NCBI GenBank assembly: GCA_030700225.1
Contig: JAUYJT010000038.1
Location: forward strand, 1-40,466
Origin: Candidatus Nanopelagicales bacterium
GTDB taxonomy: Bacteria; Actinomycetota; Actinomycetes; S36-B12; GCA-2699445
Length of the DNA: 40,466 nucleotides
Reading direction: 5' to 3'
A program made the position numbers and the translations under genes. The notes under the pieces were generated by a model. It had not been told where the DNA came from, ran no database searches, and saw only the letters and a program-made list of their open reading frames with translations. Below, piece after piece: positions 2 to 14,094 of this stretch. Every line of letters begins with the position of its first letter. Position 1 is the stretch's first letter.

Positions 2-157
2 GTCCTGCGATCCATTCGAGCCGCCGAGTTCACCGGACGCTGTGGCCGGTGCGACTTCCGCACGATCTGCGGCGGCTCCCGATCACGGGCGTTCGCGGCA
101 TCCGGCGATCCTCTGGCCGAGGATCCAGCGTGCGCCTACGATCCTGCGGCGAAGTAG
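2..157 (+). CDS. Radical SAM/SPASM protein, C-terminal end (cut by window edge)
   Basis: Reading from base 2 gives 51 residues open to a TAG at 155-157, with no start inside the window. The peptide carries a cysteine pattern C-G-R-C followed by T-I-C-G-G-S-R-S-R, then an alanine-rich stretch and L-A-E-D-P-A-C-A-Y. This is the auxiliary iron-sulfur cluster tail of SPASM-type radical SAM enzymes, a group that includes heme-modifying and peptide-modifying members. The S-adenosylmethionine-binding barrel must lie left of the window, so the substrate cannot be inferred. Its closeness to a lanthipeptide locus makes a RiPP role possible but unproven. The last part of this gene (61-141) is repeated exactly at 9580-9660 inside a gene fossil. 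Confidence 0.7.
   Translation, partial: VLRSIRAAEFTGRCGRCDFRTICGGSRSRAFAASGDPLAEDPACAYDPAAK
61..141 (+). repeat. 81-bp direct repeat, left copy
   Basis: Bases 61-141 are identical to 9580-9660 by direct reading. The repeat lies inside the 3' end of the radical SAM/SPASM gene, covers the T-I-C-G-G to A-C-A-Y segment, and stops 16 bases before the end of the stop codon. The two copies bracket the whole lanthipeptide locus. Confidence 0.95.
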
Positions 158-336
158 CTCTGTTGCCTCATGTCAAGATGCCCGCCTAAGCGTATTGGTT
201 GCCTCACCTGGGAATGCCCGGATTGAGTTGATGGTGACGGCCGGTTTCCTGGCGGCCGCTGACTTGGCCGTCGTGACTTCGCGGTGGCCGCCGGTGGGTG
301 GAACGGGGCTGCGGCCGTGTCGTACTTCGTGTCCCG
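158..336. other. Spacer between radical SAM 3' end and S9 peptidase 3' end
   Basis: No coding region is convincing here; the short frames overlapping it are not protein-like. It holds two copies of TTGCCTCA (163-170 and 199-206). The second belongs to TTGCCTCACCT, which shares TGCCTCACCT with 2655-2664 in front of the transposase fragment. A TGCCCGCCTAAG at 179-190 has an 11 of 12 match in inverted orientation at 3028-3039. These may be insertion-sequence scars, but the matches are short. No terminator hairpin with a T-tract was seen although the flanking genes converge here. Confidence 0.35.
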
Positions 337-2433
337 CTAACGATCTCCGCTACCGAAGAAGTACTTGTCGAACCAGGCATTATCCTCCACAAGCTTTCGC
401 CTCAAATGGGCTGGCGATTCCAGAGCGTGCTTCTCACCAGGGAAGATGAACATCTTCACAGGGACCTTGCCGTACTGCTGGATGCCCCTGAAGGTGTTGA
501 GCGTCATGGCTAGAGGGACGTTCTGGTCCTTGTCGCCACCGTAGAAGATTGTGGGCGTGACTACCTTCTCGGAGTTATAGAACGGCGCATTGTCGGGGTT
601 GATGAAGTACTCGGGATCCTTGACGGGATCCTTGAACCAGTACTGGCCGAACACCCCTCCGAAGAGGGAGCCCCCCCAGTCCGACACCCACTCGCCGCCG
701 CCAGCTCCGGCCGATGCCGCCTTGAACCTCGCATCACCCTTTGCGATGAGGGCGACGGACAGGATCGCCCCGTTGGACCAACCAAGGGTGCCAAGCCGGT
801 TGGGATCTATGAACCCGAGCTCATCCAGTCGGTCCACCGCCGTGTAGAAATCCTCGAGCGGATAGTCATAGTAGTGGCCGCCGAGGAGCGACTTCTGGAA
901 AGGAAGACCGTAGTTCAGGCTGCCGTGGTAGTTCGGCCTCAGAACGAAGGCCCCCTTCTGGGCCATCAAGTGGGGTGCCTCATAGGGGTTGTCCATGTAT
1001 CGGTCTGTTACTGCCATCGTGGGTCCGCCGTGAATAATAAACACCATGGGGTATCTCTTCCCAGGTTCGTAGCCGTTCGGGTAAGAGAGAAGCCCCTGGA
1101 CCTCTTCGCCCTCCGCGCCGACCCAACTCATCACCTCGGTGCGACCGAGGTTCTTCTTCTTAAGATACCGGTTGAGGTCAGTGATCACCCGCGTCTTCTC
1201 GAGCCGATCCCCTTTCACGTTGGCCAGGTAGAGCTGGTCAGGGGTGTTAGCCGTCCCGTAGGTGTAGACGATCTTCTCGCCGTCGTGTGAGGCATCCAAG
1301 GCGAAGATATTTCCCTGGTGGTCGCTATCGAGATCCTCGCGCTCCCACGTCGAACCCGATCGAGCGTACTTCGCCGCTATTGGATTCGTACCGTCCGCCA
1401 GCAAGGTCATGAAACCCCCCTCGAACGGAACGAGTGCCCCATAGAGGAAAGAAGACATCTGGTCGATGCCACGCTCCCAGCCGAGGTCGGGCTCTAACTC
1501 AGCTCCGGTCTGGACGTCAAGCACGCGCGGTATCGTCAGGTAGTTCGCGAGTATCTCGTCGTCCGAGTAGAAATCTACAACGAACAGTGTCTTTGAGTCC
1601 GGTGACCATAGCCCGCCTCCCATCAGCCACCGGCTTTCGGCGAAGACCTTCGTCTCCCGGCCCGTCTTTAGGTCGAGCAAGTAGTTCTCGAAAGGAATCG
1701 TCTGCTGCCACTGAGCGGGATAGAGGTCGTTTGCGCTCTTGGTCCGCGTGTAGAAGGCATACCTGCCGTCTGGAGAGCCCGAAATGGAAATGAGCCGGTC
1801 ATGATTGTTCGTAAGCCTCGTCGTCTTCCCTCCCGCGAGGTCGACCCTGAACAGCCTCGTCGGCGTATCGCTGTAATCCGTCACCTCGTACGTATGGTCA
1901 TTCGGATCTCCTCCCTTAGTGCGGCCGGGAGCCGTGTACAGGATGGCGTCCGAAGCTGACCATGAGAGCCCCGTGATGCCGTTCCGGGCCGACGACACGG
2001 AGGAAGCTGAACCTTTGCTGACGTCCAGGAACCAGGCCTGGGGCAGGCCTTTTGAATCGCTCATGAAGGCGAGCCGCTTCCCGTCCGGAGACCACGCGAC
2101 TTGTGAGATCGAGCTCACGCCCTTCGGCGTCACCTGCCTTGAGGCCCCACTGGCGAAATCCACCAGGAACAGATCTCCTCCGTCCTTGACCCATGCGACC
2201 GTCGAGCCATCCGGCGACATTCTGAACTCGCTATAGCTCTCACGGTCGAGGATGTCGTCGTTAGTTAGCGCCTGCTTGCCGCTTATCCGCAGCGGCTTCC
2301 CACTTGGATCATCGAGCTTCACCGATTCCTGTTCCTGTGTCTTCGCGCACCCCACCAGGAAGAGAAGGGACAGAGCAAGCAGGAAGATCCCAACGACAGC
2401 ACCACGTCGTCTGGCTTCCGTGCGTGGACTCAT
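337..2433 (-). CDS. S9 family (prolyl oligopeptidase-like) serine peptidase, lipoprotein
   Basis: A 698-residue exported peptidase. The start at 2433 (M-S-P-R-T) is chosen because AGGAG sits five bases upstream; a GTG at 2448 in the same frame has less support. The N-terminus has arginines, a hydrophobic helix and a lipobox ending L-V-G-C29, so it is probably a lipid-anchored outer-face enzyme. Residues of roughly 55-420 contain WD/TolB-like propeller repeats (S-P-D-G-S, W-S-P-D-G-K, S-P-D-G-R). The C-terminal third is an alpha/beta hydrolase with G-W-S553-N-G, Asp636 in G-D-K-D-Q-N-V-P and His669 in E-K-H-A-L, a full catalytic triad. Family members cleave peptides, often after proline or basic residues. 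Its position beside a lanthipeptide locus allows a role in leader trimming or peptide inactivation outside the cell, which is inference only; general peptide scavenging is equally possible. Confidence 0.88.
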   Translation of the reverse strand: MSPRTEARRRGAVVGIFLLALSLLFLVGCAKTQEQESVKLDDPSGKPLRISGKQALTNDDILDRESYSEFRMSPDGSTVAWVKDGGDLFLVDFASGASRQVTPKGVSSISQVAWSPDGKRLAFMSDSKGLPQAWFLDVSKGSASSVSSARNGITGLSWSASDAILYTAPGRTKGGDPNDHTYEVTDYSDTPTRLFRVDLAGGKTTRLTNNHDRLISISGSPDGRYAFYTRTKSANDLYPAQWQQTIPFENYLLDLKTGRETKVFAESRWLMGGGLWSPDSKTLFVVDFYSDDEILANYLTIPRVLDVQTGAELEPDLGWERGIDQMSSFLYGALVPFEGGFMTLLADGTNPIAAKYARSGSTWEREDLDSDHQGNIFALDASHDGEKIVYTYGTANTPDQLYLANVKGDRLEKTRVITDLNRYLKKKNLGRTEVMSWVGAEGEEVQGLLSYPNGYEPGKRYPMVFIIHGGPTMAVTDRYMDNPYEAPHLMAQKGAFVLRPNYHGSLNYGLPFQKSLLGGHYYDYPLEDFYTAVDRLDELGFIDPNRLGTLGWSNGAILSVALIAKGDARFKAASAGAGGGEWVSDWGGSLFGGVFGQYWFKDPVKDPEYFINPDNAPFYNSEKVVTPTIFYGGDKDQNVPLAMTLNTFRGIQQYGKVPVKMFIFPGEKHALESPAHLRRKLVEDNAWFDKYFFGSGDR

Positions 2434-2481
2434 GACAACTCCTATCACCGTTTCGCGGGCACTTCTCGTGATGCTCGCCGA

Positions 2482-2571
2482 TCACTTGTCGCTCAGGATC
2501 CGGAGGACATACTCTATCTCTATCTCAAGGTCCTCCCCGGTTCCCGACCTGATCGCGTTCGCGAGACTCAT
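2482..2571 (-). CDS. Short ORF (29 residues) with strong ribosome-binding site
   Basis: Directly upstream of the S9 peptidase on the same strand, an ATG at 2571 is preceded by AGGAG with a seven-base spacing and opens a 29-codon frame ending in TGA at 2482-2484. The peptide begins M-S-L-A-N-A-I-R and continues with an acidic and aliphatic stretch (G-E-D-L-E-I-E-I-E-Y-V-L). It has no cysteine. The gap to the peptidase start is 48 bases, so the two are likely cotranscribed. It could be a leader ORF, a small regulatory peptide or a peptide substrate. No family is recognised. A competing 28-codon frame just upstream (starting at an ATGATG) has no ribosome-binding site. Confidence 0.4.
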   Translation of the reverse strand: MSLANAIRSGTGEDLEIEIEYVLRILSDK

Positions 2572-2707
2572 CGGGAGCTCCTGAGTCGGCTGATACCTCC
2601 CTTGCCATCATGACTGTCTATCTGAATCTGCTTGTCTATGTCTAGAGATCGGCGTGCCTCACCTATTTTGAGCGCGTGACCGCCTGTTGGGGGAAGGCTT
2701 GCCTGTT

Positions 2708-3031
2708 ATGGAAGGCAAGATCGATATGGCCGCGAGACGGCAAATGACGAACAAGCTGCGCACCCAGTACCGAACGGCATCGAGGGCGGAGAGGGGCGAG
2801 ATCCTGGACCGGGTGGTGGACACCACGGGGATGGGCCGCTCGACGGCCCGGCGGATGCTGACCGGCCCGAGGCTGGTGAACCCGGCCGAGCAGGTCGACG
2901 GGCGCACGCTGCGGCCGCGAGCCTACGGTGACGACGTGGCCTCCAAAGCCAGCTCGGCCGGCGTGAATGGACGACCCCGGCCCGAGCGTAAGGCAGAGAC
3001 CGTTACCGTTTCCACCAGACAGGAATCCTAA
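2708..3031 (+). pseudogene. Truncated transposase/integrase N-terminus (IS remnant)
   Basis: The frame from ATG 2708 encodes 107 residues. The first 75 or so resemble the N-terminal helix-turn-helix portion of integrase-type transposases seen in actinobacteria: M-A-A-R-R-Q-M-T-N-K-L-R, then A-S-R-A-E-R-G-E-I-L-D, T-G-M-G-R-S-T-A-R-R-M-L, and L-R-P-R-A-Y-G-D-D-V. In full-length relatives the last motif leads into a further helix and then the DDE catalytic core. Here the similarity stops near 2943 and an unrelated tail runs to the stop at 3029-3031. No DDE catalytic core is present, so the element cannot move by itself. The exact IS family is not certain. The remnant lies immediately upstream of the lanthipeptide synthetase and may mark how that gene arrived. 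Confidence 0.6.
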
Positions 3032-3117
3032 GGCGGGCACGTTCCATGCGACCTTCGGCGCTCGACCGGCGCGCCTTCATCACTCGGACCCAGAGCCAGA
3101 ACGGTGGTGACGACGCC

Positions 3118-6100
3118 ATGACAGCAGCGGAGCTACCTTCCCAGGTGTTGCTGGCTGGACGCCGGTGGGATGAGCGATTGGGGGCGGCCCGCCGCGGCGC
3201 CTCACTTGGTGCCGCGCCGACAGTCGCGCCGGGCGACAGCCTTGCAGCCGGTGACAGTGAACGCGGCCGCTGCACGGGTGTCGATCAACGGCTGCCCGAG
3301 GTCGACGAGTTGGTCAAGTGGCGGGAAGTGATCGACCCTGACGACGCGGGGCTGTTCGCCAAGCGGTTGGAGTGGGAGGGGTTGACGCCAGATGACGCGC
3401 GGCGGATGCTGGCTGGCGCGGACGGAAATGCTGACGCCAGCGCGGACGCTCCGCGAGATTCGACCGCAGCCTGCCCCGCGCGGCCGCAGTGGTGGGGCGT
3501 CCTGCATTGGATCTCCCGGACGTGTCGTGATTCGGCGGCCACACCAATCAGCGACGACGACTGGCTGGCAAGTGTCGAGGACTCGATGCCCGCAGCTGTC
3601 GCCCCGGTTCCGTTCAGCTGCCTGCTGTGGCCGGTGGCACATGAGGCGTGGCGACGGCTGCAAGCCGACGATCCGAGCCTGGGGGTGTTGAGCCGCGAGG
3701 CTGTGGTCGAGGTTCAGCGGGACCTCGTCGGTCGGATGTCCGCCATCGCGGCTAGAGCCTTGATGGTGGAGTTCTCGGCCGACCGGACCTGTGGAAACGC
3801 GTTCCTGCTGTCGTTGGGCGCCTCCCGCACTGATCGTGGCCGGTCCCGGTACGCCGAGTACTGTCGGCAGCACGCCAGCGAAGGGATGACTGGTTTGCTC
3901 ACGGAGTTCCCGGTGCTTGGCAGACTGTTGGCCAACGTCGTCCTGACTTGGCAACGGACGAATCGCGAGTTGTGCCGTCGGCTGGTGTCCGACGAGGCGG
4001 ATCTGGCGCAGGCGTTCGGAGCGTCGGTCCCCGTCCGAGTGAACTGGCTGAGGACAGGGGCTGGCGACACGCACTGCGGCGGGCGTTCTGTCGCCGTCCT
4101 GGGCTTGAACAGTCCAGACGGTGGGGTGTCGGTGGCCTACAAGCCGAAGGACATGAGGATCGAAGTCGAGTACCACGCCCTTGCGTCTTGGTTCGTTGAG
4201 GGTGAGCATGCGCGCCCAGTGGTCAAGGTCGTCGCGGTCGGGGACAGCTACGGCTATGCCTCAGCGGTCGAGCACGTTCCGGCACGCACGCCGGCAGAGC
4301 TTGAAGACTTCTACCGAAATGCCGGGCGGCTACTGGCACTGCTTCACTTCCTGGGTGCCACAGACGCTCATTTCGAGAACCTCATAGCCAACGGATCCCG
4401 GCTGGTTCTGATAGACCCCGAGACACTGTTCGAGGGTCGCCTGCATGCCCTGCCAGGCACCCCGGAGGGCGGCGCGGAAGGTCGAGCCGAGGGCGGCGCG
4501 CCACCGGACGGTCGCCTCGACCATGACGTGATGACTTCGGTGTTGCGCATCGGGCTGCTGCCCTCCTGGCACGTTGACGCACTCGCCGCCCGCGCGTCCG
4601 ACATCAGCGCCCTGGGAACCGAGCAGTACCCGGTGGAAGCAACCCTCATCAGTCCGGGTTGGGTGAACGCGAACACCGACGCGATGGCGTGGGGCCGTGC
4701 CTCGTTCTCAGCCCAGGCGATCGCCAGCCTGCCAGTCGGACTCGGAAGCGCCAACCCGCTCGCCAGCCATATCGGAGCGTTGGTGGAAGGCTTCACGGAC
4801 GGATATCGCCATGCGACAGACCCGTCACACCGCGACGAACTGACGAGGCGGATGCGGGCGTTCGCCGGCTTGCGTCGGCGAATCGTCGTGCGCGCCACTC
4901 AGACCTACATGAATCTGATGCTGCGCTGCGTATCCCCGGAACGCTTGCGGTCGGCCAACGATCGCGGGTTCGAACTCGACCGGTTGGGTCGCAGCGCCCT
5001 GATTGCCGAGGAACCATCAGTGCAGTGGCAACTGTTCCACGCCGAATTGCACGACCTGGAGAACCTCGACGTCCCCTTCTTCTCCTACCCACTCGGCTCT
5101 ACCAGTGTGATCGCGTCTGATCGGACCATCCCGGACGCTCTGGTCGAGGACGGACTGGCGCAAGCCCTGGCCAGGGTGAGGCAGGCGTCCGAATCCGACC
5201 TGTCGTGGCAGGTCGAGTTGATCCGGGCTGCCGTTGGCGCCCGCAGCTTCGGCATGTCAGCCAAGGAGGCGCCAAATGGGTCACCGTCCGGGCCGGATGC
5301 GACAACTGACCCCACCGCGATCAGCGACGCTTTGGCCCAGATCCTCGCGGCCATCGAAGTGGGCGCCCTGCGGGACGAGCAAAGCAACAGCACATGGCTG
5401 GTTCTCAATCCGATCGGCGATGGGACACAGATCCAGCTCGGGTTGATGGACGCGGGGCTTTACTCCGGGCGGGCTGGGCTGATGGTGTTTCTTGGCGAGT
5501 TGGCCCGGCTGTTCCGGGCCGATCCCCAGGTGGCGGAGCGGGCGCGTTCGCTGGCAGAAGCGGGTTGGCGAGCCATCACGTCGGAGTTGTTGGACCGCCC
5601 GCCCTACGACGCGTTCCGCCAACTGCGTGATCTTGGGTTGGGCTTCACAGGGGTCGGCGGGCTGCTGCGGGCGTTGGCGGTCCCCACCGCTTCCGTGACG
5701 GATTCCGATGCGCATCGAATCCGATCCCTGATCCTCGATGGGATGATCTCGGGGTTGATCGACAAAGACATGATGTTCGACTTCATGGCGGGAGCGGCTG
5801 GCGCGGTGGCTCCGCTGGCGGCGTTGCAGGGATCGTGGCCAGATGACCGGGTCAAGGCGGCCGTCCGGATGCTCGCAGATCACCTGCTCGCCCACCAAGA
5901 CACACGCTCGGGCAGCTGGGTCACGCCCATAGCCCCGCGTGCGCTCACTGGGTTGAGCCATGGGGCCAGTGGCTTCGGCCTCGCATTGCTGCAAGCCGGG
6001 TCGCTGCTCGAAGACGAGCGCTGCGTCGAAGCGAGTGCGGCAGCGTTCGGCTTCGAACGACGGTTGTTGGATCGGGAGCAAGACAACTGGCCTGACCTGC

Positions 6101-6543
6101 GGTCGAACCCGACCGCAGGCGGGTTCATGGTGGCTTGGTGTCATGGAGCGGCGGGCATCGCGCTCGCGCGGTCGAACGCGCTGGCGCTCATGCCTGACCA
6201 TTCGCTCGCCGAGCAATGGCGTGAGGACCTGGACATCGCCATTCGCAAGACGGCTCATGCGCCACAGCGCGAACTTGACCACTTGTGTTGTGGCAACGCG
6301 GGCCGGGCCGCGATCTTGCGCGGGCTGGGTCGTAGACATGGTTGGCCCGAATCCGAGGCTGCCGCCGACTCGATCACGAAGGCGATGTTGGCCCGGTGGC
6401 GCGCCACCGGGCAATTCCACCTCAATGACCTCGGCACCGGAACAACGGTCGGCCGCGCGGGTTTGATGACCGGCCTGGCGGGCATCGGCTTGCACCTATT
6501 GGGTGAATACGATCGCTGCAACCTCCTGGACCTGCTAGCGTGA
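3118..6543 (+). CDS. lanM: Class II lanthipeptide synthetase LanM, CCG-type cyclase
   Basis: A bifunctional enzyme that phosphorylates and eliminates Ser/Thr of a precursor peptide and then adds Cys thiols to form (methyl)lanthionine rings. From ATG 3118 it has 1141 residues; an in-frame ATG at 3046 would add 24 residues that do not look like the family, and neither start has a strong Shine-Dalgarno. The dehydratase half shows Y-K342-P-K344-D, D416-A-H418-F-E-N421 and D433-P-E435-T, the kinase-like active-site residues of LanM proteins. The C-terminal LanC-like half has the repeated G-x-x-G pattern, W-C1008-H-G and L-C1057-C1058-G-N. The Cys-Cys-Gly in place of Cys-His-Gly places it with the ProcM-like synthetases, known for three-cysteine zinc binding and tolerance of varied Nif11-type precursors. 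The precursor gene follows 46 bases later. Confidence 0.95.
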   Translation: MTAAELPSQVLLAGRRWDERLGAARRGASLGAAPTVAPGDSLAAGDSERGRCTGVDQRLPEVDELVKWREVIDPDDAGLFAKRLEWEGLTPDDARRMLAGADGNADASADAPRDSTAACPARPQWWGVLHWISRTCRDSAATPISDDDWLASVEDSMPAAVAPVPFSCLLWPVAHEAWRRLQADDPSLGVLSREAVVEVQRDLVGRMSAIAARALMVEFSADRTCGNAFLLSLGASRTDRGRSRYAEYCRQHASEGMTGLLTEFPVLGRLLANVVLTWQRTNRELCRRLVSDEADLAQAFGASVPVRVNWLRTGAGDTHCGGRSVAVLGLNSPDGGVSVAYKPKDMRIEVEYHALASWFVEGEHARPVVKVVAVGDSYGYASAVEHVPARTPAELEDFYRNAGRLLALLHFLGATDAHFENLIANGSRLVLIDPETLFEGRLHALPGTPEGGAEGRAEGGAPPDGRLDHDVMTSVLRIGLLPSWHVDALAARASDISALGTEQYPVEATLISPGWVNANTDAMAWGRASFSAQAIASLPVGLGSANPLASHIGALVEGFTDGYRHATDPSHRDELTRRMRAFAGLRRRIVVRATQTYMNLMLRCVSPERLRSANDRGFELDRLGRSALIAEEPSVQWQLFHAELHDLENLDVPFFSYPLGSTSVIASDRTIPDALVEDGLAQALARVRQASESDLSWQVELIRAAVGARSFGMSAKEAPNGSPSGPDATTDPTAISDALAQILAAIEVGALRDEQSNSTWLVLNPIGDGTQIQLGLMDAGLYSGRAGLMVFLGELARLFRADPQVAERARSLAEAGWRAITSELLDRPPYDAFRQLRDLGLGFTGVGGLLRALAVPTASVTDSDAHRIRSLILDGMISGLIDKDMMFDFMAGAAGAVAPLAALQGSWPDDRVKAAVRMLADHLLAHQDTRSGSWVTPIAPRALTGLSHGASGFGLALLQAGSLLEDERCVEASAAAFGFERRLLDREQDNWPDLRSNPTAGGFMVAWCHGAAGIALARSNALALMPDHSLAEQWREDLDIAIRKTAHAPQRELDHLCCGNAGRAAILRGLGRRHGWPESEAAADSITKAMLARWRATGQFHLNDLGTGTTVGRAGLMTGLAGIGLHLLGEYDRCNLLDLLA

Positions 6544-6589
6544 CGGGCGGTTCGGGGTGACAATCTCCCCGTTGTTGAAGGGAGACAAG

Positions 6590-6871
6590 GTGACCGATCA
6601 AATCGCGGCCCTCATGGACGCCGCAGCCAGCGACGAGGCGTTGAAGGCGAAACTGACTGCCGCGAAGTCGATCGACGAAATCGTCGCCGTCGCGGCCGCC
6701 AACGGTTTCACTTTGACGAGCGACGATGTGGTGGCCGCGCTTGACGCGGAGCGCGAGGTCTCGGACGCCGAACTGGAAGGCGCGGCGGGTGGCGCCAAGT
6801 CCGGCCTTGGGGCGTACGCCATTTGCAGCGCGGGTTTCCAGCCAGAGCTGCTTCCGCCTGCGTGCAGGTAA
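6590..6871 (+). CDS. lanA: Nif11-type lanthipeptide precursor peptide
   Basis: The start is GTG 6590, with AGGGAG at 6579-6584 in front; a GTG at 6557 in the same frame lacks such a site. The product is 93 residues. Positions 1-68 form a Nif11-like leader: helix-prone A-L-K-A-K-L, A-K-S-I-D-E-I-V, then A-A-N-G-F-T-L-T-S-D-D-V and an acidic end closing with E-L-E-G-A-A-G-G. Cleavage after Gly-Gly would free a 25-residue core beginning A-K-S-G and ending P-A-C-R. The core has Ser3, Cys11, Ser12 and Cys24 and no threonine, so at most two lanthionines. Two successive rings, Ser3-Cys11 and Ser12-Cys24, are the simplest pattern (inferred). It is placed right after lanM, and no other precursor was found in the window. 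Confidence 0.92.
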   Translation: MTDQIAALMDAAASDEALKAKLTAAKSIDEIVAVAAANGFTLTSDDVVAALDAEREVSDAELEGAAGGAKSGLGAYAICSAGFQPELLPPACR

Positions 6872-6919
6872 CCGGTCACCGGCTCAGCCCCTTCGGCGGC
6901 GGCGCGGCAAGTTGCTGCG

Positions 6920-9490
6920 ATGTGCGCATGGGTCGCGATTGAGTTTGGTTTCGATCAGCGGATAGTTGGTGCGGCGTCTAACGCCGCTCGCTGCCTCAGC
7001 GAACGCGAGGGCGTCGCAATCCTCCCTCTGGTCGGGTTCGAAGTGCACCATGACGGTTCGGGGCGCACGGATCTGGCTCTTTTCACTCGGCAGGCTCCTG
7101 GCCGCCTTTGCCGTTATGGCAATGCCGAATTCGCCATTGCGGGCGATGACACCGTCGAAGTTGATCTGACTTCTGCGGCTCCCCGGGTCGCCGGAGTCTT
7201 TCATCAAGTCGCGTCCGCCACTTTGCCGCTGTCCTTGGCCCGGTTGGGGACGCCGGTGCTCGTCTCGTCAATGGTGGGACGTTCAGGTGAGCTGCGCCTG
7301 CTGTTCCCGGTGCCTGACCAGACCTCGTTGGTCGTTGCGGTCGACTCCCTCGCGGAACTTGGAGTCGGAGGACAGGTACTGGCGTCCATCAGCCACTGCG
7401 CCCCCCTCCTCACATCCGGCGGCTCGCTGCGAATAGGGATCGACTATCTGCCCGAACGTGATCGGCTCTCGGAGCGGATCGGGATCGAAGTTGTGATCGA
7501 CGCATCCCATTACGACGTCTTCGGGCCCGTTTCGCGTCTTGGCGTTCGCGACGAAACTGTTGAGCGGATGCGTGAACTCGTGCTGTCGCTGCCCAGGGTC
7601 CGCGAGCGCGAAGTAGCTCACCCACTATTCCCCGCGCTCAAAGTGCCTAATCGCGTCGACACAGTCGCGATGACCCACTTCAGCCTGTCCTGGCCGACCG
7701 GCCAGATTGACCGCGTCATCCTGAAAAGCTACATACTGGCAGCGTCGAGACAACTTGGGACGCCCGAGGCGATGGCCGACGCAGAAGCGGAAGTGGCGGC
7801 CCGGGAAGCGGGAAGGTCTTGGACGTCGCAACTGGCGTGGGCGGGCAGCCAGCTGCCGCTGCTGCGGCCGGGGCGGGCCGCGGAATCCGAGGTGGCGCGA
7901 TGGCGAGCAGCGGTCGCTGCGGATCACCCCGGGATGTTCGAGCGTCGGCTGCGAAGCGCGGGCCTGCGAAACGAACAGGCGCTGGTGGCAGTCAGCGACC
8001 GGCCGTCCGGCCTGTACGCGGAGACGGCGCCATGGTGGCCCTGGTTCGAGCGGGTGCGGTCGGCATACGCGAATCTGGGGTCGTCCGATGAGGGAGTCGC
8101 AAACGACGGGCAATGGCTCGAAAGCGCCGAGGCGCAGTTGCCACCCGGAGCCAGCCGCGGCCTCCCCTTCGCAGCGGCGCTGGCGCCCGTCGTCACCCAG
8201 GGCTGGACCCTCTTCTGCAACGATCACTCAGATCTCGTGGGATCACTGCGCCCGACCGCCGCAGATGACCTGCGGCTGATGCTGCTGGCTCGGCTCGGCG
8301 AGGCTTGCGGCAAAGCGCTGCGTTCCCTTCTCGGGCCGATGCCGGTGCCAGGTCTTGGCGGTGGGTCTCCGTCGCGGCCGGAGTTCGACCGCGCCCAATA
8401 TGCTGCCTTATGTCGCTTTCTGCATCGAACTACGCTGCGACCGCTGACTGACCCGTTCCCCGTACTCGCCCACGACCTAGCGACAGTGCTGCGACAGTGG
8501 CATGAGCGAACCACCGAGACGCTCACCCGGGTGGCGGTCCAGCGGGACGAACTCGCCCGGGCGTTCGGGGTGGCGACAGACGCGGGGCTGACGGCAGTGC
8601 GGGCGCTGTCGAGCGAGACACACGACGACGGGAGGTCGTCCTGGCTGCTCAGCCTCGGGGACGTGCGCGTGCGCTACATTCCGGAAGACCTGCGGTTGGC
8701 TGCGGCGTGTCGAGGGATTCTGTCGATCCTGGGCGATCACGGCCTGAGTCCAGACTTGCTGCCTTGTCCGCCCATGGTCCTTGGACTGGACCGCGCGACA
8801 GGCGATCTCGCCGGGGACCGCTTCGGATTCGTGGAGGATCTAAACGGCGGAGCGCGGCCAGAGTCCGGCCCACCGACGCAGGCAGTGAACGCCGGGCAGG
8901 CCGCTGCGTTGTCAAGCCTGCTCGGGACTGCTTGGGACGCCGTCGCACAACTCGCTGCAGCCGGGAATGAGCTGGACCTGCCTTCGGAAGAACCGCGCGG
9001 GACGCCGCCCGGCAGCTTCCCCGACTTCGCGGCCGGATTCGAGGACACGTACAACGCAGTTTCTGCTGCGGCCCCCAGCGTGTTGGCCGCGATCGAAGAC
9101 GCTGCCCACCTTCCTCGTCGGCTGGTTCTGCGGCCGGACGACGACTACCGGCGGCTGCTCGACCAGGCTTTCGAGCCGACGTCCTTGACATCGGCGACCG
9201 CGAGGGCCGTCGCGCTGGAGCGGCTCGCCCGCGAGTACTTCGATCCGCGAGGGGCACACTGGCCGGAGGATCTGTTGGGCGCCGAGCAGGAAGCCCTGGC
9301 CCGCCTCGACGTTCCGCGCGTCGAGGCGTTCCTCGGCCAGGCTGGCTGCCGGTGGGACCGCAGTGGCGGGCTGGCCAGTTGGCCCGACACACACAACTAT
9401 GAGCGGATTCGACGCGGCCTCGCCCAGCTGAGCCCCACCGACCTGCGACGACGGCTCACGGCGATGAGCGATTCAAGCAAGCAGCGCTGA
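6920..9490 (+). CDS. LanM-like pseudo-dehydratase with unknown N-terminal domain
   Basis: An 856-residue protein starting 48 bases after the precursor stop, with ATG 6920 the only start between that stop and the homologous region; no clear Shine-Dalgarno is present. Residues of about 1-300 form a mixed alpha/beta domain that I do not recognise (notable stretch H-F-S-L-S-W near residue 255). From about residue 325 the sequence aligns by eye with the N-terminal half of the neighbouring LanM: R-W-R-A-A-V against K-W-R-E-V-I, Y-A-A-L-C-R-F-L-H against Y-A-E-Y-C-R-Q-H, and D-E-L-A-R-A-F-G-V against A-D-L-A-Q-A-F-G-A. The active-site Y-K-P-K-D has become Y-I-P-E-D, D-A-H-F-E-N has no counterpart and D-P-E-T is absent. 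There is no LanC cyclase. It therefore probably does not phosphorylate; binding the leader or assisting the active LanM is an inference. Confidence 0.8.
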   Translation: MCAWVAIEFGFDQRIVGAASNAARCLSEREGVAILPLVGFEVHHDGSGRTDLALFTRQAPGRLCRYGNAEFAIAGDDTVEVDLTSAAPRVAGVFHQVASATLPLSLARLGTPVLVSSMVGRSGELRLLFPVPDQTSLVVAVDSLAELGVGGQVLASISHCAPLLTSGGSLRIGIDYLPERDRLSERIGIEVVIDASHYDVFGPVSRLGVRDETVERMRELVLSLPRVREREVAHPLFPALKVPNRVDTVAMTHFSLSWPTGQIDRVILKSYILAASRQLGTPEAMADAEAEVAAREAGRSWTSQLAWAGSQLPLLRPGRAAESEVARWRAAVAADHPGMFERRLRSAGLRNEQALVAVSDRPSGLYAETAPWWPWFERVRSAYANLGSSDEGVANDGQWLESAEAQLPPGASRGLPFAAALAPVVTQGWTLFCNDHSDLVGSLRPTAADDLRLMLLARLGEACGKALRSLLGPMPVPGLGGGSPSRPEFDRAQYAALCRFLHRTTLRPLTDPFPVLAHDLATVLRQWHERTTETLTRVAVQRDELARAFGVATDAGLTAVRALSSETHDDGRSSWLLSLGDVRVRYIPEDLRLAAACRGILSILGDHGLSPDLLPCPPMVLGLDRATGDLAGDRFGFVEDLNGGARPESGPPTQAVNAGQAAALSSLLGTAWDAVAQLAAAGNELDLPSEEPRGTPPGSFPDFAAGFEDTYNAVSAAAPSVLAAIEDAAHLPRRLVLRPDDDYRRLLDQAFEPTSLTSATARAVALERLAREYFDPRGAHWPEDLLGAEQEALARLDVPRVEAFLGQAGCRWDRSGGLASWPDTHNYERIRRGLAQLSPTDLRRRLTAMSDSSKQR

Positions 9491-9676
9491 TCGTTCTTGC
9501 TTCCGACTAGATTGCTCGGACAGTTCCACCCCAATGACCTCGGCACCGGAACAGCGGTCGGGTCGACCAGCAGCCCGACCACGATCTGCGGCGGCTCCCG
9601 ATCACGGGCGTTCGCGGCATCCGGCGATCCTCTGGCCGAGGATCCAGCGTGCGCCTACGACCCTTCGCCTGTGTAG
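9491..9676 (+). pseudogene. Chimeric gene fossil: LanM 3' fragment fused to radical SAM 3' fragment
   Basis: After the TGA of the previous gene a frame stays open to TAG 9674-9676 but has no credible start. Bases 9521-9561 match the C-terminal part of lanM (6412-6452) at 38 of 41 positions, giving G-Q-F-H-P-N-D-L-G-T-G-T. This runs in frame through a short linker into T-I-C-G-G-S-R-S-R and the SPASM tail, identical over 81 bases with 61-141, then diverges to end D-P-S-P-V instead of D-P-A-A-K. The simplest reading is a deletion that joined the inside of a second lanM copy to the end of a second radical SAM copy. It indicates that the locus once held a duplicated set of these genes. Confidence 0.75.
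9580..9660 (+). repeat. 81-bp direct repeat, right copy
   Basis: Identical to 61-141. It lies within the chimeric fossil and marks the right boundary of the lanthipeptide segment. Bases before and after the block differ from the left copy except for a few scattered positions. Confidence 0.95.
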
Positions 9677-9685
9677 TCAGCCAAC

Positions 9686-10504
9686 TCAGAACGGCCAGGC
9701 GAGGGCGAAGCTCCACTGGCCCTGGGCAACAGCCAGCGCCGTAGCCAGCCCAACCAGCGCCAAACACACCAGGACCGCTGCCATGTCCTGCCCGCCGAGA
9801 GTTGATTGACGCGCGTAGGTTCGCGCGGCATACGGGTCGAAGCCTCGGGCTTCCATCGCGACCGAAAGGCGAACGGCCCTGCGCAAGGCTTCCACTAGCA
9901 GACCCACCAAACGACTCATCGCCCCGCGAACCGCGGACGCGGGGCCACGACCGGCGAGTCCTCGTGCGCGGCGCGCGTCGGACATCTCACGCCAGTCGAA
10001 GGCGAGCAGCGGCAAGACCCGCAGGCCGACGAGCATAGACAGCGCATACCTGGACGGGACGCGGACGATCTGCTGCAGACCATCCGCCATGAGCGTCGGG
10101 TCCGTAGTCGACAGCAGCAACACGGCCGGCAGTGACAAAGCCAGAACGCGCAGCCCGATGGCTGAAGCCTGCACAAGGCCCCCGGTCGACAGGGAGAACG
10201 GCCCCCAGTCGAGGATCAGGTAGCCCTCGTGATTCGAGCTGAAAAGGGCGTTGACGAGCGTCAGGATCGCGGCGATCGCCACGAGGAATCCGGACCTGAC
10301 GGCCACCGTTCTTGGCCGTAGCCCGAAGAACGGCAGCGCGACAAGTTCGCCAATGAGGATCACTCCAGCCGTCGTGGGATCAACGCTCAATAGAAGCCCG
10401 ATCGTGACCACAGCGGTAATGACCAGCTTCGTGACCGCGTTGAGCCGACCAACGCAGGGCCAAACACCTGATGTCTCGACGCCCTGCCCGAACTCCAGGC
10501 TCAT
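9686..10504 (-). CDS. ykoC: ECF transporter transmembrane (T) component, YkoC/CbiQ-like
   Basis: A 272-residue membrane protein with about five hydrophobic segments and the two Ala-Arg-Gly motifs of EcfT proteins, seen as D-A-R-R-A-R-G-L-A-G and M-E-A-R-G-F-D, which couple the T subunit to the ATPases. Its ATG (10502-10504) overlaps the ATPase stop in an ATGA arrangement, so the two are translationally coupled. In this operon it should anchor the ATPases to the YkoE-type substrate-binding protein. The order S component, ATPases, T component matches Bacillus ykoEDC, and the TPP riboswitch upstream supports uptake of thiamine or its hydroxymethylpyrimidine precursor. Confidence 0.9.
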   Translation of the reverse strand: MSLEFGQGVETSGVWPCVGRLNAVTKLVITAVVTIGLLLSVDPTTAGVILIGELVALPFFGLRPRTVAVRSGFLVAIAAILTLVNALFSSNHEGYLILDWGPFSLSTGGLVQASAIGLRVLALSLPAVLLLSTTDPTLMADGLQQIVRVPSRYALSMLVGLRVLPLLAFDWREMSDARRARGLAGRGPASAVRGAMSRLVGLLVEALRRAVRLSVAMEARGFDPYAARTYARQSTLGGQDMAAVLVCLALVGLATALAVAQGQWSFALAWPF

Positions 10505-12036
10505 AGAGGATCACCCCCCGTCTCCTCGACGTCCAGCCGAAGACGCCCCCTGGTCATCCGGTACTCGACCGCACCGAGCGCCTTCACCAGTTCCGCATCG
10601 TGCGTCACGACGACTAGTGCCCGCTGATCATCCAGCTGCCTTATCAGCAGCTCGACCGTCGCGCGCCACGTGTTCAAGTCCTGCCCGAACGTCGGCTCGT
10701 CCAGCACGAGCGCGCCGGGGCCACCGGCCAAGGCCGCCCCCACGGCGAGCCGACGCTTCTCCCCTCCGGACAACGTGTAAGGGTTCGCGCGGGCCACGTC
10801 TTCCAAATGCAACTCGTCGAGGAGCAGGTCAGCCCGCTCACAAGCTTGCCTGCGCGTCAGCCCAGACGCCCGGGCGCCGATCGCCAGTTCCGCGCGGGCG
10901 GACGTGGCCACGAACTGATGCTCAGGCTCCTGGAAAACGCTTCCGACAACGCGGCAAAGATCACGCGAACGGTAGCGGTGCAGTGGCTTATCGCTGCCAG
11001 CCGCCGTGACGCTGCCCTGACTCGGGCGCATCAGGCCGCCTAGGGCTCGCGCGAGTGTCGACTTGCCAGCCCCGTTCGGGCCCATGACGGCAACAGCGGT
11101 CGACCGGGATGCGCGAAGCGAAACCCCGTCAACCACCGGCGGGCCCTTCTTGACCCGCCGAATGACCACATCCCGCGCGGTAAGAACGGCCGTTTCTGGC
11201 GTGGCGGGTGATCTTGTGACGATTCCGGCCATATATGGCCGATTCCGCTGAATCCGCGGCCGGGAACCCGGCAGCAGCTCGACCCCCGGCACGAAAACCC
11301 CCAGATCGGCCAGCTCCGATCCCCTCGATCGCAGGACTTCAGCGGTTGGACCGTCGAACAGGATGCCCTCGGGCTGAAGGACGACGATCCGGTCCACGAG
11401 ATCAACCACGTCGGCCAGACGGTGCTCCACTAGCACTAGCGTCGACCCGGAGTCGGCCAGCACCTCCTGGAGGGCACCTACCGTCATGGCGGCGCCCTCA
11501 GCATCCAGATTCGCGGTCGGCTCGTCGAGGATGAGCAAGCCCGGCTTCCGGACCAAGAGCCCGGCCAGCGCCACCCGCTGCTTCTCGCCGCCAGACAGGG
11601 CAGACGTCGGCCGCTCCAATCCATACGGGAATCCCACGACCCCGAGCGATCGCTCGACCCTTGGCCAGATCGCGGCCCGGTCGACCTGCGCGTTCTCCAG
11701 CCCGAAAGCGACATCGTCGCCGACCTTCGTCAGGATCAGATTGGTCTCCGGATCCTGCATCATCAGACCGACCTGCTGACCCACGTCAACGGCCGCGATC
11801 TCGCGCGACCCGCGGCGATACTTGATCGTCCCGGCTGTCTGAGCGGATTCCGCCTCGTCTCCGATGGCCGCGAGCGCCCGCAGCAGGGTCGACTTCCCGA
11901 CACCGGATCCACCGGCGATCAGCACTCGCTCACCGGGAGCGATTTCAAGATCAACATTTCTGAAGGCCCACTTGGACCGCCCCGCATAACGCCATCCGAA
12001 GTCCCGGGCGCTCACGCCCACTGCCATGTCTGTCAT
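10501..12036 (-). CDS. ykoD: ECF transporter fused double ATPase (A1-A2), YkoD-like
   Basis: 511 residues from ATG 12036, chosen because it overlaps the S-component stop as ATGA; the frame opens 147 bases further up but that part lies inside the upstream gene. Two complete ABC ATPase domains are fused. The first has G-G-S-G-V-G-K-S-T, L-S-G-G-E-K-Q-R and L-L-I-L-D-E-P-T-A-N. The second has G-P-N-G-A-G-K-S-T, L-S-G-G-E-K-R-R and L-V-L-D-E-P-T-F-G-Q-D. Both keep the catalytic glutamate and a following V-E-H or V-T-H-D switch histidine, so both sites should hydrolyse ATP. The protein energises the ECF importer formed with the flanking genes. Confidence 0.93.
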   Translation of the reverse strand: MTDMAVGVSARDFGWRYAGRSKWAFRNVDLEIAPGERVLIAGGSGVGKSTLLRALAAIGDEAESAQTAGTIKYRRGSREIAAVDVGQQVGLMMQDPETNLILTKVGDDVAFGLENAQVDRAAIWPRVERSLGVVGFPYGLERPTSALSGGEKQRVALAGLLVRKPGLLILDEPTANLDAEGAAMTVGALQEVLADSGSTLVLVEHRLADVVDLVDRIVVLQPEGILFDGPTAEVLRSRGSELADLGVFVPGVELLPGSRPRIQRNRPYMAGIVTRSPATPETAVLTARDVVIRRVKKGPPVVDGVSLRASRSTAVAVMGPNGAGKSTLARALGGLMRPSQGSVTAAGSDKPLHRYRSRDLCRVVGSVFQEPEHQFVATSARAELAIGARASGLTRRQACERADLLLDELHLEDVARANPYTLSGGEKRRLAVGAALAGGPGALVLDEPTFGQDLNTWRATVELLIRQLDDQRALVVVTHDAELVKALGAVEYRMTRGRLRLDVEETGGDPL

Positions 12037-12632
12037 TCCCCGGCCACCAGACGCGCCGCGCGACCTGACGGCATCGCGTCGAGTGCTCCAGCCGACGCGA
12101 GCCGCCTCACGATCCAGGGCGCCAGCACTGTCCCAAGCACCAGCCCACTCAAGCACCCCGCCAACACGTATGCCTGCTTCCATTCCGGGGTCCAGAACGG
12201 GAAGTAGAACGTGACGTCAAGCGTTGTTCCCGCAGCGGCTGCCAAGGCCGTAGCGATCCCGGCGGTCATACGGTTCCAGACCCGGTAGCCGAATACCGCG
12301 AAGACGATCTCCGCGGCCAACCCCTGGGCAAGTCCGTAGATGAGCGCGGTCAACCCGAACACGTTCCCCAGGAAGGCCGAGATAACGACCGCTGACATTG
12401 AACCGAACAAGGCGGCGCCCGGTCGCCGAACAACAAGCGCGGCGATGACTTGAGGCAGCATCCAGACCCCGTACAGCAGCGCTTGGGTTGGCGGGTAAGC
12501 GACGAAGAGCGGCGTCGATACCAGCCACAGTTGATTCCAGGCCCAATACACCACACCGAAAGTCGACCCGATCACAGCGACGGAGACGAGATCTACTACT
12601 CGCCAGCGACCTCGCATGAACTTCGCGAGCAT
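12033..12632 (-). CDS. ykoE: ECF transporter substrate-binding (S) component, YkoE family
   Basis: 199 residues, mostly hydrophobic with five to six membrane segments. Family features include D-L-V-S-V-A-V-I-G near the start, V-Y-W-A-W-N-Q-L-W and G-L-A-Q-G-L-A-A-E-I-V-F. YkoE proteins bind thiamine or hydroxymethylpyrimidine. The ATG at 12632 is six bases below the GGGAGG that closes the TPP riboswitch, so the ribosome-binding site lies in the aptamer's 3' strand and translation is probably repressed when TPP binds. The stop overlaps the ATPase start. It is the first gene of a three-gene operon. Confidence 0.92.
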   Translation of the reverse strand: MLAKFMRGRWRVVDLVSVAVIGSTFGVVYWAWNQLWLVSTPLFVAYPPTQALLYGVWMLPQVIAALVVRRPGAALFGSMSAVVISAFLGNVFGLTALIYGLAQGLAAEIVFAVFGYRVWNRMTAGIATALAAAAGTTLDVTFYFPFWTPEWKQAYVLAGCLSGLVLGTVLAPWIVRRLASAGALDAMPSGRAARLVAGE

Positions 12633-12636
12633 CGCT

Positions 12637-12735
12637 CTCCTCCCTTGCCGGCATTACCCGGCCAGGTTCCAACGGTCGGCGGATTACCCGCCCTCTCAGC
12701 CCGGATACCCGGACTCCCGCGTCCGCGAGTCTGCG
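12637..12735 (-). promoter_or_regulatory. TPP riboswitch (THI element)
   Basis: Read on the minus strand the region contains the conserved aptamer parts in order: GGGAGTCC, a CCGGgtatCCGG hairpin, GCTGAGAGG (CTGAGAG at 12699-12693), GACCGTTGGAACCTG, and CCGGGTAATGCCGGCAAGGGAGG ending at 12639 (given here only as its motif parts CCGGG-TAATGCCGG-AAGGGAGG). The order and spacing match the thi-box. The 3' strand includes the Shine-Dalgarno of the YkoE gene, which suggests control of translation initiation by thiamine pyrophosphate. The outer limits of the first stem are approximate. Confidence 0.93.
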
Positions 12736-12816
12736 AACACCCGCATCCTATATGCCAGCCCGGGCCGCGCGCGGATCAACCGCAAGCCGCGCCGGAACTC
12801 CGCGGGGGCGTCGGCT

Positions 12817-13029
12817 CTACTTGTCCTCGAGCCGGAAGCCCAGCTTGAGCGCCACCTGGAAGTGATCGACGCTGCCGTCCCGGACGTAACCGCGGATCTG
12901 CGTCACCTCGAACCAGTCGATATGCCGAACCGTCTTGGAAGCGCGCGCGAGAGCGTTGCGCACAGCCGCGTCGACGCCGTCAGGGCTGGTTCCTACAACT
13001 TCGCTGAGACCGTATGTGCGATTCGCCAT
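12817..13029 (-). CDS. Dodecin family flavin-binding protein
   Basis: 70 residues from ATG 13029, which has AGGAGG five bases upstream (GGAGGACAC before ATG); longer upstream frames have no support. The sequence M-A-N-R-T-Y-G-L-S-E-V-V-G-T-S, then D-A-A-V-R-N-A-L-A-R-A and W-F-E-V-T-Q-I-R-G and the end F-Q-V-A-L-K-L-G-F-R-L, matches the dodecin family in size and order. Dodecins form hollow dodecamers that store or buffer flavins. The tryptophan of W-F-E is the residue that stacks on flavin in known members. It stands between the riboswitch operon and the stress-protein gene, all on the same strand. Confidence 0.93.
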   Translation of the reverse strand: MANRTYGLSEVVGTSPDGVDAAVRNALARASKTVRHIDWFEVTQIRGYVRDGSVDHFQVALKLGFRLEDK

Positions 13030-13123
13030 GTGTCCTCCTGATCGGAACGACGCTGCCCCCAGGTTACGCGCGACCCCCACAGAACGCCTGCCACGCAGCG
13101 CCGGATCTGCTTCGCGACCAGGA

Positions 13124-14008
13124 CTATGTACGCCGGGGAAGAACAATCGCCGGCACTGGTGTGGCTCTGATCAGCTTGTACGTCATGTCGCCAAGAAACA
13201 CTCGCATGATCTTGCCTTCCTTGGATGAGCTCAGCAGCAGCACCTCATCGCCCCTCCAGTCAAGACGCTGCAACGCCGCGAGCGGAGAATCACCCACAGC
13301 GATCACGCTGTCCCCCCGCAGAGATGCGGGAACATCGCGCATAGCGCGCTCGTGGCCGGCCTCAGCGTCCTCCCTTTGCTCTGCGATGACCGCTTGCTCG
13401 GCTGCGGAACCCAGATCGCTGCCATAGGTCCGGTGCCGAACGAGGACGGTCAAGGGCGCAACCAAGCTTCCTGAGCACTCCGCTAGCTCGACCGCCCGTA
13501 GCAAGGCGTCTTGCGACTCGGTCGTGTTCTGGAATGCGACGACGATTCTTCCGATGGAACGGGGGGCTGTTCGCCGGTATCCGACGGGCGCCAAACACAC
13601 GGGAAATGCGGAACCGTGGAGCAGCTGATCGGCTGTGGACCCTACCTGGAAGCGGCCGTTCGACGCTCCCGAGGAGCTACCAACAACGATCATGTCCGCT
13701 CCAAGAGCGGTGGCTGTTTCGTTCAGCCCGACACCGCTTGACCTATGGCCGTGCATGGCGGTCGCAGCGCCCGCGAAACCCTGGGCTTCCGCCATCTCCT
13801 CGGTCGCTTCGGCCAGCACGTCCGCTGCTTGCTCACGCAGGAACGCAGTCCATTCGGCATCAACGTGGCCGACCCTGGCTGGGTCATAGGCCTCCGGATA
13901 CACATGCACCAGTACCGGATCGGCACCGAGCGATCGGCACAGCACCGCCCCAAGAGCGAGAGCATCGCCGGAAGATTCGTCCGGAGTTACTCCAATTGCG
14001 ATGAGCAT
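13124..14008 (-). CDS. Universal stress protein, tandem UspA domains
   Basis: 294 residues from the ATG at 14008 (M-L-I-A-I-G-V-T-P-D). Two UspA domains are in tandem. The first carries I-V-V-G-S-S-S-G followed by V-G-S-T-A-D-Q-L-L, the glycine pattern that binds ATP in UspA proteins. The second ends L-L-L-S-S-S-K-E-G-K, F-L-G-D-M-T-Y-K-L-I, P-V-P-A-I-V-L-P and lacks the full glycine motif, so it may not bind nucleotide. Such proteins help survival under stress or starvation. The gene diverges from the amino acid permease with about 86 bases between starts. Confidence 0.9.
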   Translation of the reverse strand: MLIAIGVTPDESSGDALALGAVLCRSLGADPVLVHVYPEAYDPARVGHVDAEWTAFLREQAADVLAEATEEMAEAQGFAGAATAMHGHRSSGVGLNETATALGADMIVVGSSSGASNGRFQVGSTADQLLHGSAFPVCLAPVGYRRTAPRSIGRIVVAFQNTTESQDALLRAVELAECSGSLVAPLTVLVRHRTYGSDLGSAAEQAVIAEQREDAEAGHERAMRDVPASLRGDSVIAVGDSPLAALQRLDWRGDEVLLLSSSKEGKIMRVFLGDMTYKLIRATPVPAIVLPRRT

Positions 14009-14094
14009 GGCCCGTTCCGTTCTGGTATGTGATTGCGGGATTCTCGCTACGGTACCGAACAGGGAGTAGCAGAGCGTTATCGGCGGGAGGAACC

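Follow-up and report, generated by a model that had tools for sequence, protein, structure and literature searches.

The subject of this analysis is a small lanthipeptide locus near the start of contig JAUYJT010000038.1 of a Candidatus Nanopelagicales bacterium (GenBank assembly GCA_030700225.1). The whole stretch of DNA that was analysed, 40,466 nucleotides long, is termed here the window; it is contig C38 of an assembly of 2.62 Mb in 85 contigs that is 95.7% complete. The first gene of the locus, lanM, encodes a class II lanthipeptide synthetase; about 46 bp after it, on the same strand, lies a gene for a Nif11-type precursor peptide (lanA), and next comes an open reading frame (ORF2) that resembles LanM in part. 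The first two genes have the following features:

3118..6543, forward strand: lanM, class II lanthipeptide synthetase, 1141 residues from ATG 3118 (the frame is open from ATG 3046, that is 3046..6543, 1165 residues)
3907..5085, forward strand: dehydratase domain (DUF4135) of lanM, with kinase-type motifs YKPKD, DAHFEN and IDPE and the elimination Arg/Thr intact
5446..6501, forward strand: LanC-like cyclase domain of lanM, with a zinc Cys at 6139-6141 (AWCHG) and Cys-Cys-Gly (CCG) at 6286-6294 (HLCCGNAGRA)
6590..6871, forward strand: lanA, Nif11-type precursor with a GTG start, 93 residues; leader 6590-6793 (68 residues, ending in Gly-Gly), core 6794-6868 (25 residues)

The LanM of the window scores 613 bits against TIGR03897 (cut-off 304) and carries the Pfam domains DUF4135 and LANC_like within one protein. 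In an alignment of 11 rows (10 LanMs plus ORF2), it keeps the DxH, YKPKD, DAHFEN and IDPE motifs, the Arg/Thr and the zinc Cys residues, and its catalytic and zinc motifs are conserved with the 9 other LanMs; judged from this alignment, every catalytic motif examined is present. (The roles given to these motifs--kinase-type, elimination Arg/Thr and zinc--are those known from work on CylM and are presumed to apply here.) Its best match among genomes of the same order is a second LanM of the same genome, on contig C61 (41% identity). LanMs at E <= 1e-60 occur in 12 of the order's 166 genomes, and a wider contig scan yielded only two remote relatives, in Synechococcus (35%) and Bradyrhizobium (31%). 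A tree of 13 LanM rows joins long branches and does not group the window and C61 LanMs with support; no claim made here rests on it.

The frame listed for lanA begins at GTG 6557; the most likely start is nevertheless GTG 6590, to judge from the ribosome-binding sequence upstream of it (gggagacaagg) and the fitting leader length that it yields. The precursor matches the Nif11 family both in Pfam (PF07862, 42.8 bits; cut-off 23.8) and in TIGR03798 (50.3 bits; cut-off 32.3), a match that by these profile scores is far above chance. The leader ends in EVSDAELEGAAGG, similar to the DVSDAELEAASGG of both precursors on C61, and the core that follows, AKSGLGAYAICSAGFQPELLPPACR, contains Ser3, Cys11, Ser12 and Cys24. 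Both the CCG LanM and the Nif11 leader with its Gly-Gly site and these four core residues were described in an initial annotation made from the sequence, and both descriptions hold. That annotation also predicted two non-overlapping lanthionines, for which the two Ser and two Cys are indeed in place, although the arrangement is only one of several pairings, and it named no close known product; none was found.

These two genes are best explained as a class II lanthipeptide system of ordinary type, in which a CCG LanM serves a single Nif11 precursor of its own, a reading that we consider about 75% probable. The mechanism that we infer, from the pairing of enzyme and substrate through ring pattern, cleavage and trans export to activity, would run as follows. 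LanM would bind the Nif11 leader; Ser3 and Ser12 would be phosphorylated and eliminated to dehydroalanine in the dehydratase domain; the zinc cyclase would add Cys11 and Cys24 to these residues, giving two lanthionines, with Ser3-Cys11 and Ser12-Cys24 as the likeliest pairing; and a C39 peptidase-transporter would cleave after Gly-Gly and export the product. Exporters with a C39 peptidase are found at three places in the genome (C4, C20 and C61) and nowhere on C38, so that leader removal and export would have to occur in trans or by another route; for export in trans by one of these three, the C61 exporter, which lies beside related LanM and Nif11 genes, is the most likely candidate. As a compact two-ring candidate with two Ser and two Cys, the precursor is easily tested by co-expression.

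The core could be closed in another way--by an overlapping or enclosing ring (Ser3-Cys24), a single lanthionine or a Cys11-Cys24 disulfide--inasmuch as the ring pattern in the ProcM system is set by relative ring-formation rates and by sequence, and can switch (PMC11667668). The alternative double pairing, however, would need a ring between the adjacent Cys11 and Ser12, which is probably hindered sterically, and closure other than by the two rings proposed above is judged unlikely.

A LanM paired with just one Nif11 precursor is a layout already described in the literature. In the nostolysamide system NpuA/NpuM/NpuT of Nostoc punctiforme (PMC13060382), the precursor NpuA combines a Nif11 leader of 78 residues with a Gly-Gly site and a core of 25 residues, and its modifying enzyme is the class II LanM NpuM; the window likewise has one Nif11 precursor with Gly-Gly, a 25-residue core and a class II LanM. 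The two differ in that the NpuA core contains two Thr, three Ser and four Cys, that it is acylated by NpuN, and that the exporter NpuT belongs to the system, whereas the window has no C39 exporter and no acyltransferase was seen in it. The plasmid pNsp_b of Nostoc sp. ATCC 53789 (an annotated record in a plasmid collection) provides a second supporting analogue, having a single Nif11 precursor beside a LanM that is also of the CCG type; it differs in its adjoining C39 ATP-binding cassette (ABC) transporter and HlyD genes, in a core with Thr and three Cys, and in a LanM only 28% identical to that of the window. More generally, a survey of lanthipeptide clusters (PMC7268733) places 37% of class II precursors in single-precursor clusters and also reports a Nif11 family from cyanobacteria. 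No paper on the present locus was found by title or abstract, on which alone most candidates were judged.

The initial annotation took the CCG motif as a sign of relaxed, ProcM-like substrate choice. ProcM and SyncM are highly promiscuous CCG LanMs with Nif11 leaders (PMC10027976), and the prochlorosins made by ProcM resemble the window system in their Nif11 leaders, their CCG LanM and their two-ring products, such as Pcn2.8 (PMC10027976, PMC11667668). ProcM differs in serving 29 dispersed precursors, as against one adjacent precursor here and three separate LanMs in the genome. A ProcM-type set, in which many dispersed precursors with a conserved leader and varied cores depend on one LanM, was not found, and the window system lacks the dispersed multi-substrate layout that made ProcM remarkable. 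As for the motif itself, CCG occurs in 13 of the 13 LanMs whose cyclase motif was read (the 10 alignment rows with a cyclase domain, together with those of Streptomyces NBC_00829, Nostoc ATCC 53789 and G131), among them one on contig C23 with non-Nif11 precursors. This set is biased, since its members either resembled a CCG query or came from the same genome; within it, as far as these sequences go, CCG is no distinguishing trait. Hence CCG alone does not imply ProcM-like promiscuity, and that claim is not upheld.

A search of the whole genome places LANC_like domains at three sites (C38, C61 and C23) and TIGR03798 at four (the window, two intact on C61 and one frameshifted on C81), so that the single precursor of the initial annotation is correct for the window, while the genome has further ones. 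The genes outside the window are these:

C61 (locus L005): two Nif11 precursors, then a LanM, with two exporter genes after it on the other strand
C23, 6149-9370, forward strand (L015): full-length LanM with CCG
C23, 42468-42560, 42720-42797 and 42941-43039, reverse strand: three tiny precursors after the LanM, whose conserved leader, MDAIxYxEELTEDDLTFxGxDGLA, is not of the Nif11 type
C81, 8028-8141, reverse strand (L105): Nif11 relic, a frameshifted leader gene that ends SAAGPSLRSDL, with no Cys

The C61 locus resembles that of the window in its CCG LanM and in the similar Gly-Gly end of its Nif11 leaders; it differs in having two precursors, whose cores (RRFSTLDVCPPTQLCTFGWICG and RTGPDTCLPGSILCTIPVVCSYQYHP) contain three Cys each, and adjacent NHLP-type exporters (the best NCBIfam models for the exporter genes are NHLP exporter subunits, with scores under those models' cut-offs). 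The cores on C23 read ITTMGPPHC, SSVSRLCAMC and WSSPPTC, the leader-core border being guessed, and their leader was found only in this genome among 162 genomes of the order, apart from a weak hit in G097 that falls within a very long frame.

Given its CCG motif and the presence of two more intact Nif11 precursors elsewhere in the genome, the LanM of the window might also act on those precursors or on others, in the multi-substrate manner of ProcM. This is very unlikely. The C61 precursors abut their own full-length LanM, which is only 41% identical to that of the window; their leaders share 62 of 70 aligned columns with each other, as against 23/70 and 25/70 with the window leader; and the sole lone Nif11 gene found, that on C81, is frameshifted and encodes a core without Cys. 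In the search for further Nif11 leaders, which the initial annotation had proposed as a test of multi-substrate use, the other intact ones proved to adjoin their own LanM and exporter. Because precursors adjoin their own LanMs and the leaders have diverged, the pattern in this genome looks like a separate LanM for each set of one to three precursors next to it, with no dispersed ProcM-type set. Three CCG LanMs, each beside its own one to three precursors, form a natural set for asking what CCG contributes.

Within the order, Nif11 leaders at E <= 1e-4 occur at 43 places in 20 of 166 genomes (over the family cut-off in 13 of 166). No other core like that of lanA was seen by eye at the 30 of these 43 places that were read (the window's own among the 30), and lanA has no match at E <= 1 in the plasmid collection. 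Two genomes of one genus, G111 (10 places) and G106 (6 places), contain many Nif11 leaders, several of whose cores, where read, lack Cys; these genes may belong to another class of ribosomally synthesized and post-translationally modified peptides (RiPPs). The C4 exporter belongs to a locus (L038, 1048-8972) in which what by eye resembles a YcaO-TfuA pair directly precedes an HlyD-like gene and a pair of exporter genes, of which one carries a C39 peptidase.

The genomic setting of the lanthipeptide genes is defined by the following features:

61..157, forward strand: left copy of a 97-bp direct repeat, being the 3' end of a TIGR04053-type radical S-adenosylmethionine (SAM)/SPASM gene that runs off the contig start
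337..2448, reverse strand: S9 peptidase on the variable segment, Dpp5-like under that model's cut-off
2687..3031, forward strand: transposase-like remnant, recognised by eye
9517..9561, forward strand: LanM debris of 45 bp, matching positions 6408-6452 near the 3' end of lanM at 91% identity, between ORF2 and the right repeat and in the frame of ORF2
9580..9676, forward strand: right copy of the direct repeat, 94% identical (first ~80 bp identical), directly before cbiQ

Contig C82 (L113) of the same assembly holds a full radical SAM/SPASM gene (TIGR04053, 484.8 bits; cut-off 395) and matches the window at positions 1-157 (92%) and 9685-14639 (94%, in two blocks). Between these matches, the place of window positions 158-9684 is taken by a lone acid phosphatase gene (C82 6072-7166); the lanthipeptide genes thus belong to a variable segment roughly 9.5 kb long, which from this comparison looks like an insertion or replacement at the end of a gene. 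No integrase was seen. Orthologues of cbiQ were found in only two genomes among 30 relatives (this one and G017), and the genome's own second copy, on C82, shows the site without the segment; C82 may stem from another strain present in the assembly or be a paralogous region. The 45-bp piece points to a lost LanM copy, of which it would be a trace, and window positions 2650-2867, which overlap the transposase-like remnant, have a 75% identical stretch on C81, the contig of the frameshifted Nif11 relic. Nothing connects the S9 peptidase with leader removal, and any link to the lanthipeptide would be conjectural.

This setting raises the question whether the segment is simply decaying, with lanM and lanA intact through recency only, ORF2 a degenerate LanM fusion, and no product made. 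The absence of the segment from the 94%-identical contig C82, the flanking repeats, the LanM debris, the transposase-like remnant and the lack of an exporter would all fit such a history; yet lanM, lanA and ORF2 are open without frameshifts, their guanine-plus-cytosine content by codon position is coding-like in all three, and lanM retains every catalytic motif examined, so that decay has a low, though not negligible, probability. Several observations nonetheless weigh against an ordinary, working two-ring system: no close orthologue of lanA was found, which leaves the core without evidence of conservation; the core offers no more than two Ser and two Cys, of which Cys11 adjoins Ser12, and these allow more than one pairing; the cluster has neither a C39 exporter nor any other obvious peptidase for the leader; and the segment on which the genes stand is variable and rearranged, and contains debris as well as a transposase-like remnant. 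The system might therefore be non-functional.

The most unusual part of the locus is ORF2, which is composed as follows:

6920..9490, forward strand: ORF2, 856 residues, an N-terminal domain plus a LanM-like dehydratase remnant; in the same frame as lanA, with the lanA TAA between
6920..7800, forward strand: N-terminal domain, related to the middle (residues 227-490) of a SagB/ThcOx-type oxidase (BLASTP E 2e-10, 27% identity; alignment A1)
7763..8713, forward strand: LanM-like stretch 1, model positions 4-313 of 1081, 169 bits; YKPKD changed to YIPED, the kinase Lys being replaced
8975..9472, forward strand: LanM-like stretch 2, model positions 487-654, 68 bits

Against a LanM profile of 1081 positions built from 9 LanMs, positions 314-486 (the kinase core) and 655-1081 (the rest, including the whole cyclase) are not recognisable in ORF2. 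Because of these losses and of YIPED, the LanM-like remnant should be unable to phosphorylate, dehydrate or cyclise.

Over its first 290 residues, ORF2 matches nothing but the central part of an oxidase of the SagB/ThcOx type, 762-767 residues long, in G050, G074 and G075. Among 394 genomes of the class, six have a match to this domain: the present genome, those three (of one genus, in the oxidase), and G213 and G242, whose matches were taken as chance, the open frames there showing nothing that resembles the domain. A profile of alignment A1 found only this genome among 396 genomes of the phylum, and the plasmid collection contains no match. The four members of the domain have no NCBIfam match, no significant Pfam match and no meaningful PDB match, and structure prediction was too poor for a fold search (mean predicted local distance difference test score, pLDDT, 37 for the whole of ORF2 and 33 for the N-terminal domain). 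The significant model matches of ORF2 are to DUF4135/LanM only; SagB is matched in the oxidase of its relative (L032) and not in ORF2, which has no nitroreductase/SagB domain and was accordingly rejected as a ThcOx/SagB oxidase itself. A cyanobactin-type prenyltransferase, suggested for the N-terminal domain by its motifs, was likewise set aside, there being no family or structure support.

ORF2 might instead be an active partner of the system, a pseudo-dehydratase that binds the leader and so brings the precursor to the N-terminal domain for further modification. Consistent with this, it begins 48 bp after lanA and in frame with it, its 856-codon frame is open, and its N-terminal domain is shared with a RiPP-type oxidase; moreover, non-catalytic LanM-like proteins have a precedent in the CA_C0082 family (PMC10301443), with a LanM-like protein that is without catalytic residues and part of the dehydratase. 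CA_C0082 differs in keeping a cyclase-like domain and in having Agr genes nearby, whereas in ORF2 the cyclase is absent and the N-terminal domain is of another type. Because the domain is rare (found in this genome and, within the oxidase, in three genomes that share a genus), structure predictions are poor and the adjoining debris suggests decay, such a partnership is quite unlikely. That ORF2 works as a second component, with a dead LanM dehydratase serving as leader-binding platform and a new domain further modifying the Nif11 precursor, is decidedly improbable; if true, it would constitute a bipartite lanthipeptide synthetase unlike any in the papers found, and a functional ORF2 would represent a novel type of helper protein.

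The oxidase that shares the N-terminal domain stands, in G050, in a cyanobactin-like locus (L032, contig C39 of that genome, 1253-12394) with PatG-domain subtilases, a sulfotransferase fused to PqqD and a YcaO protein; the oxidase itself combines ThcOx and SagB with the extra middle domain, and it occurs also in G074 and G075, where its neighbours were read in part.

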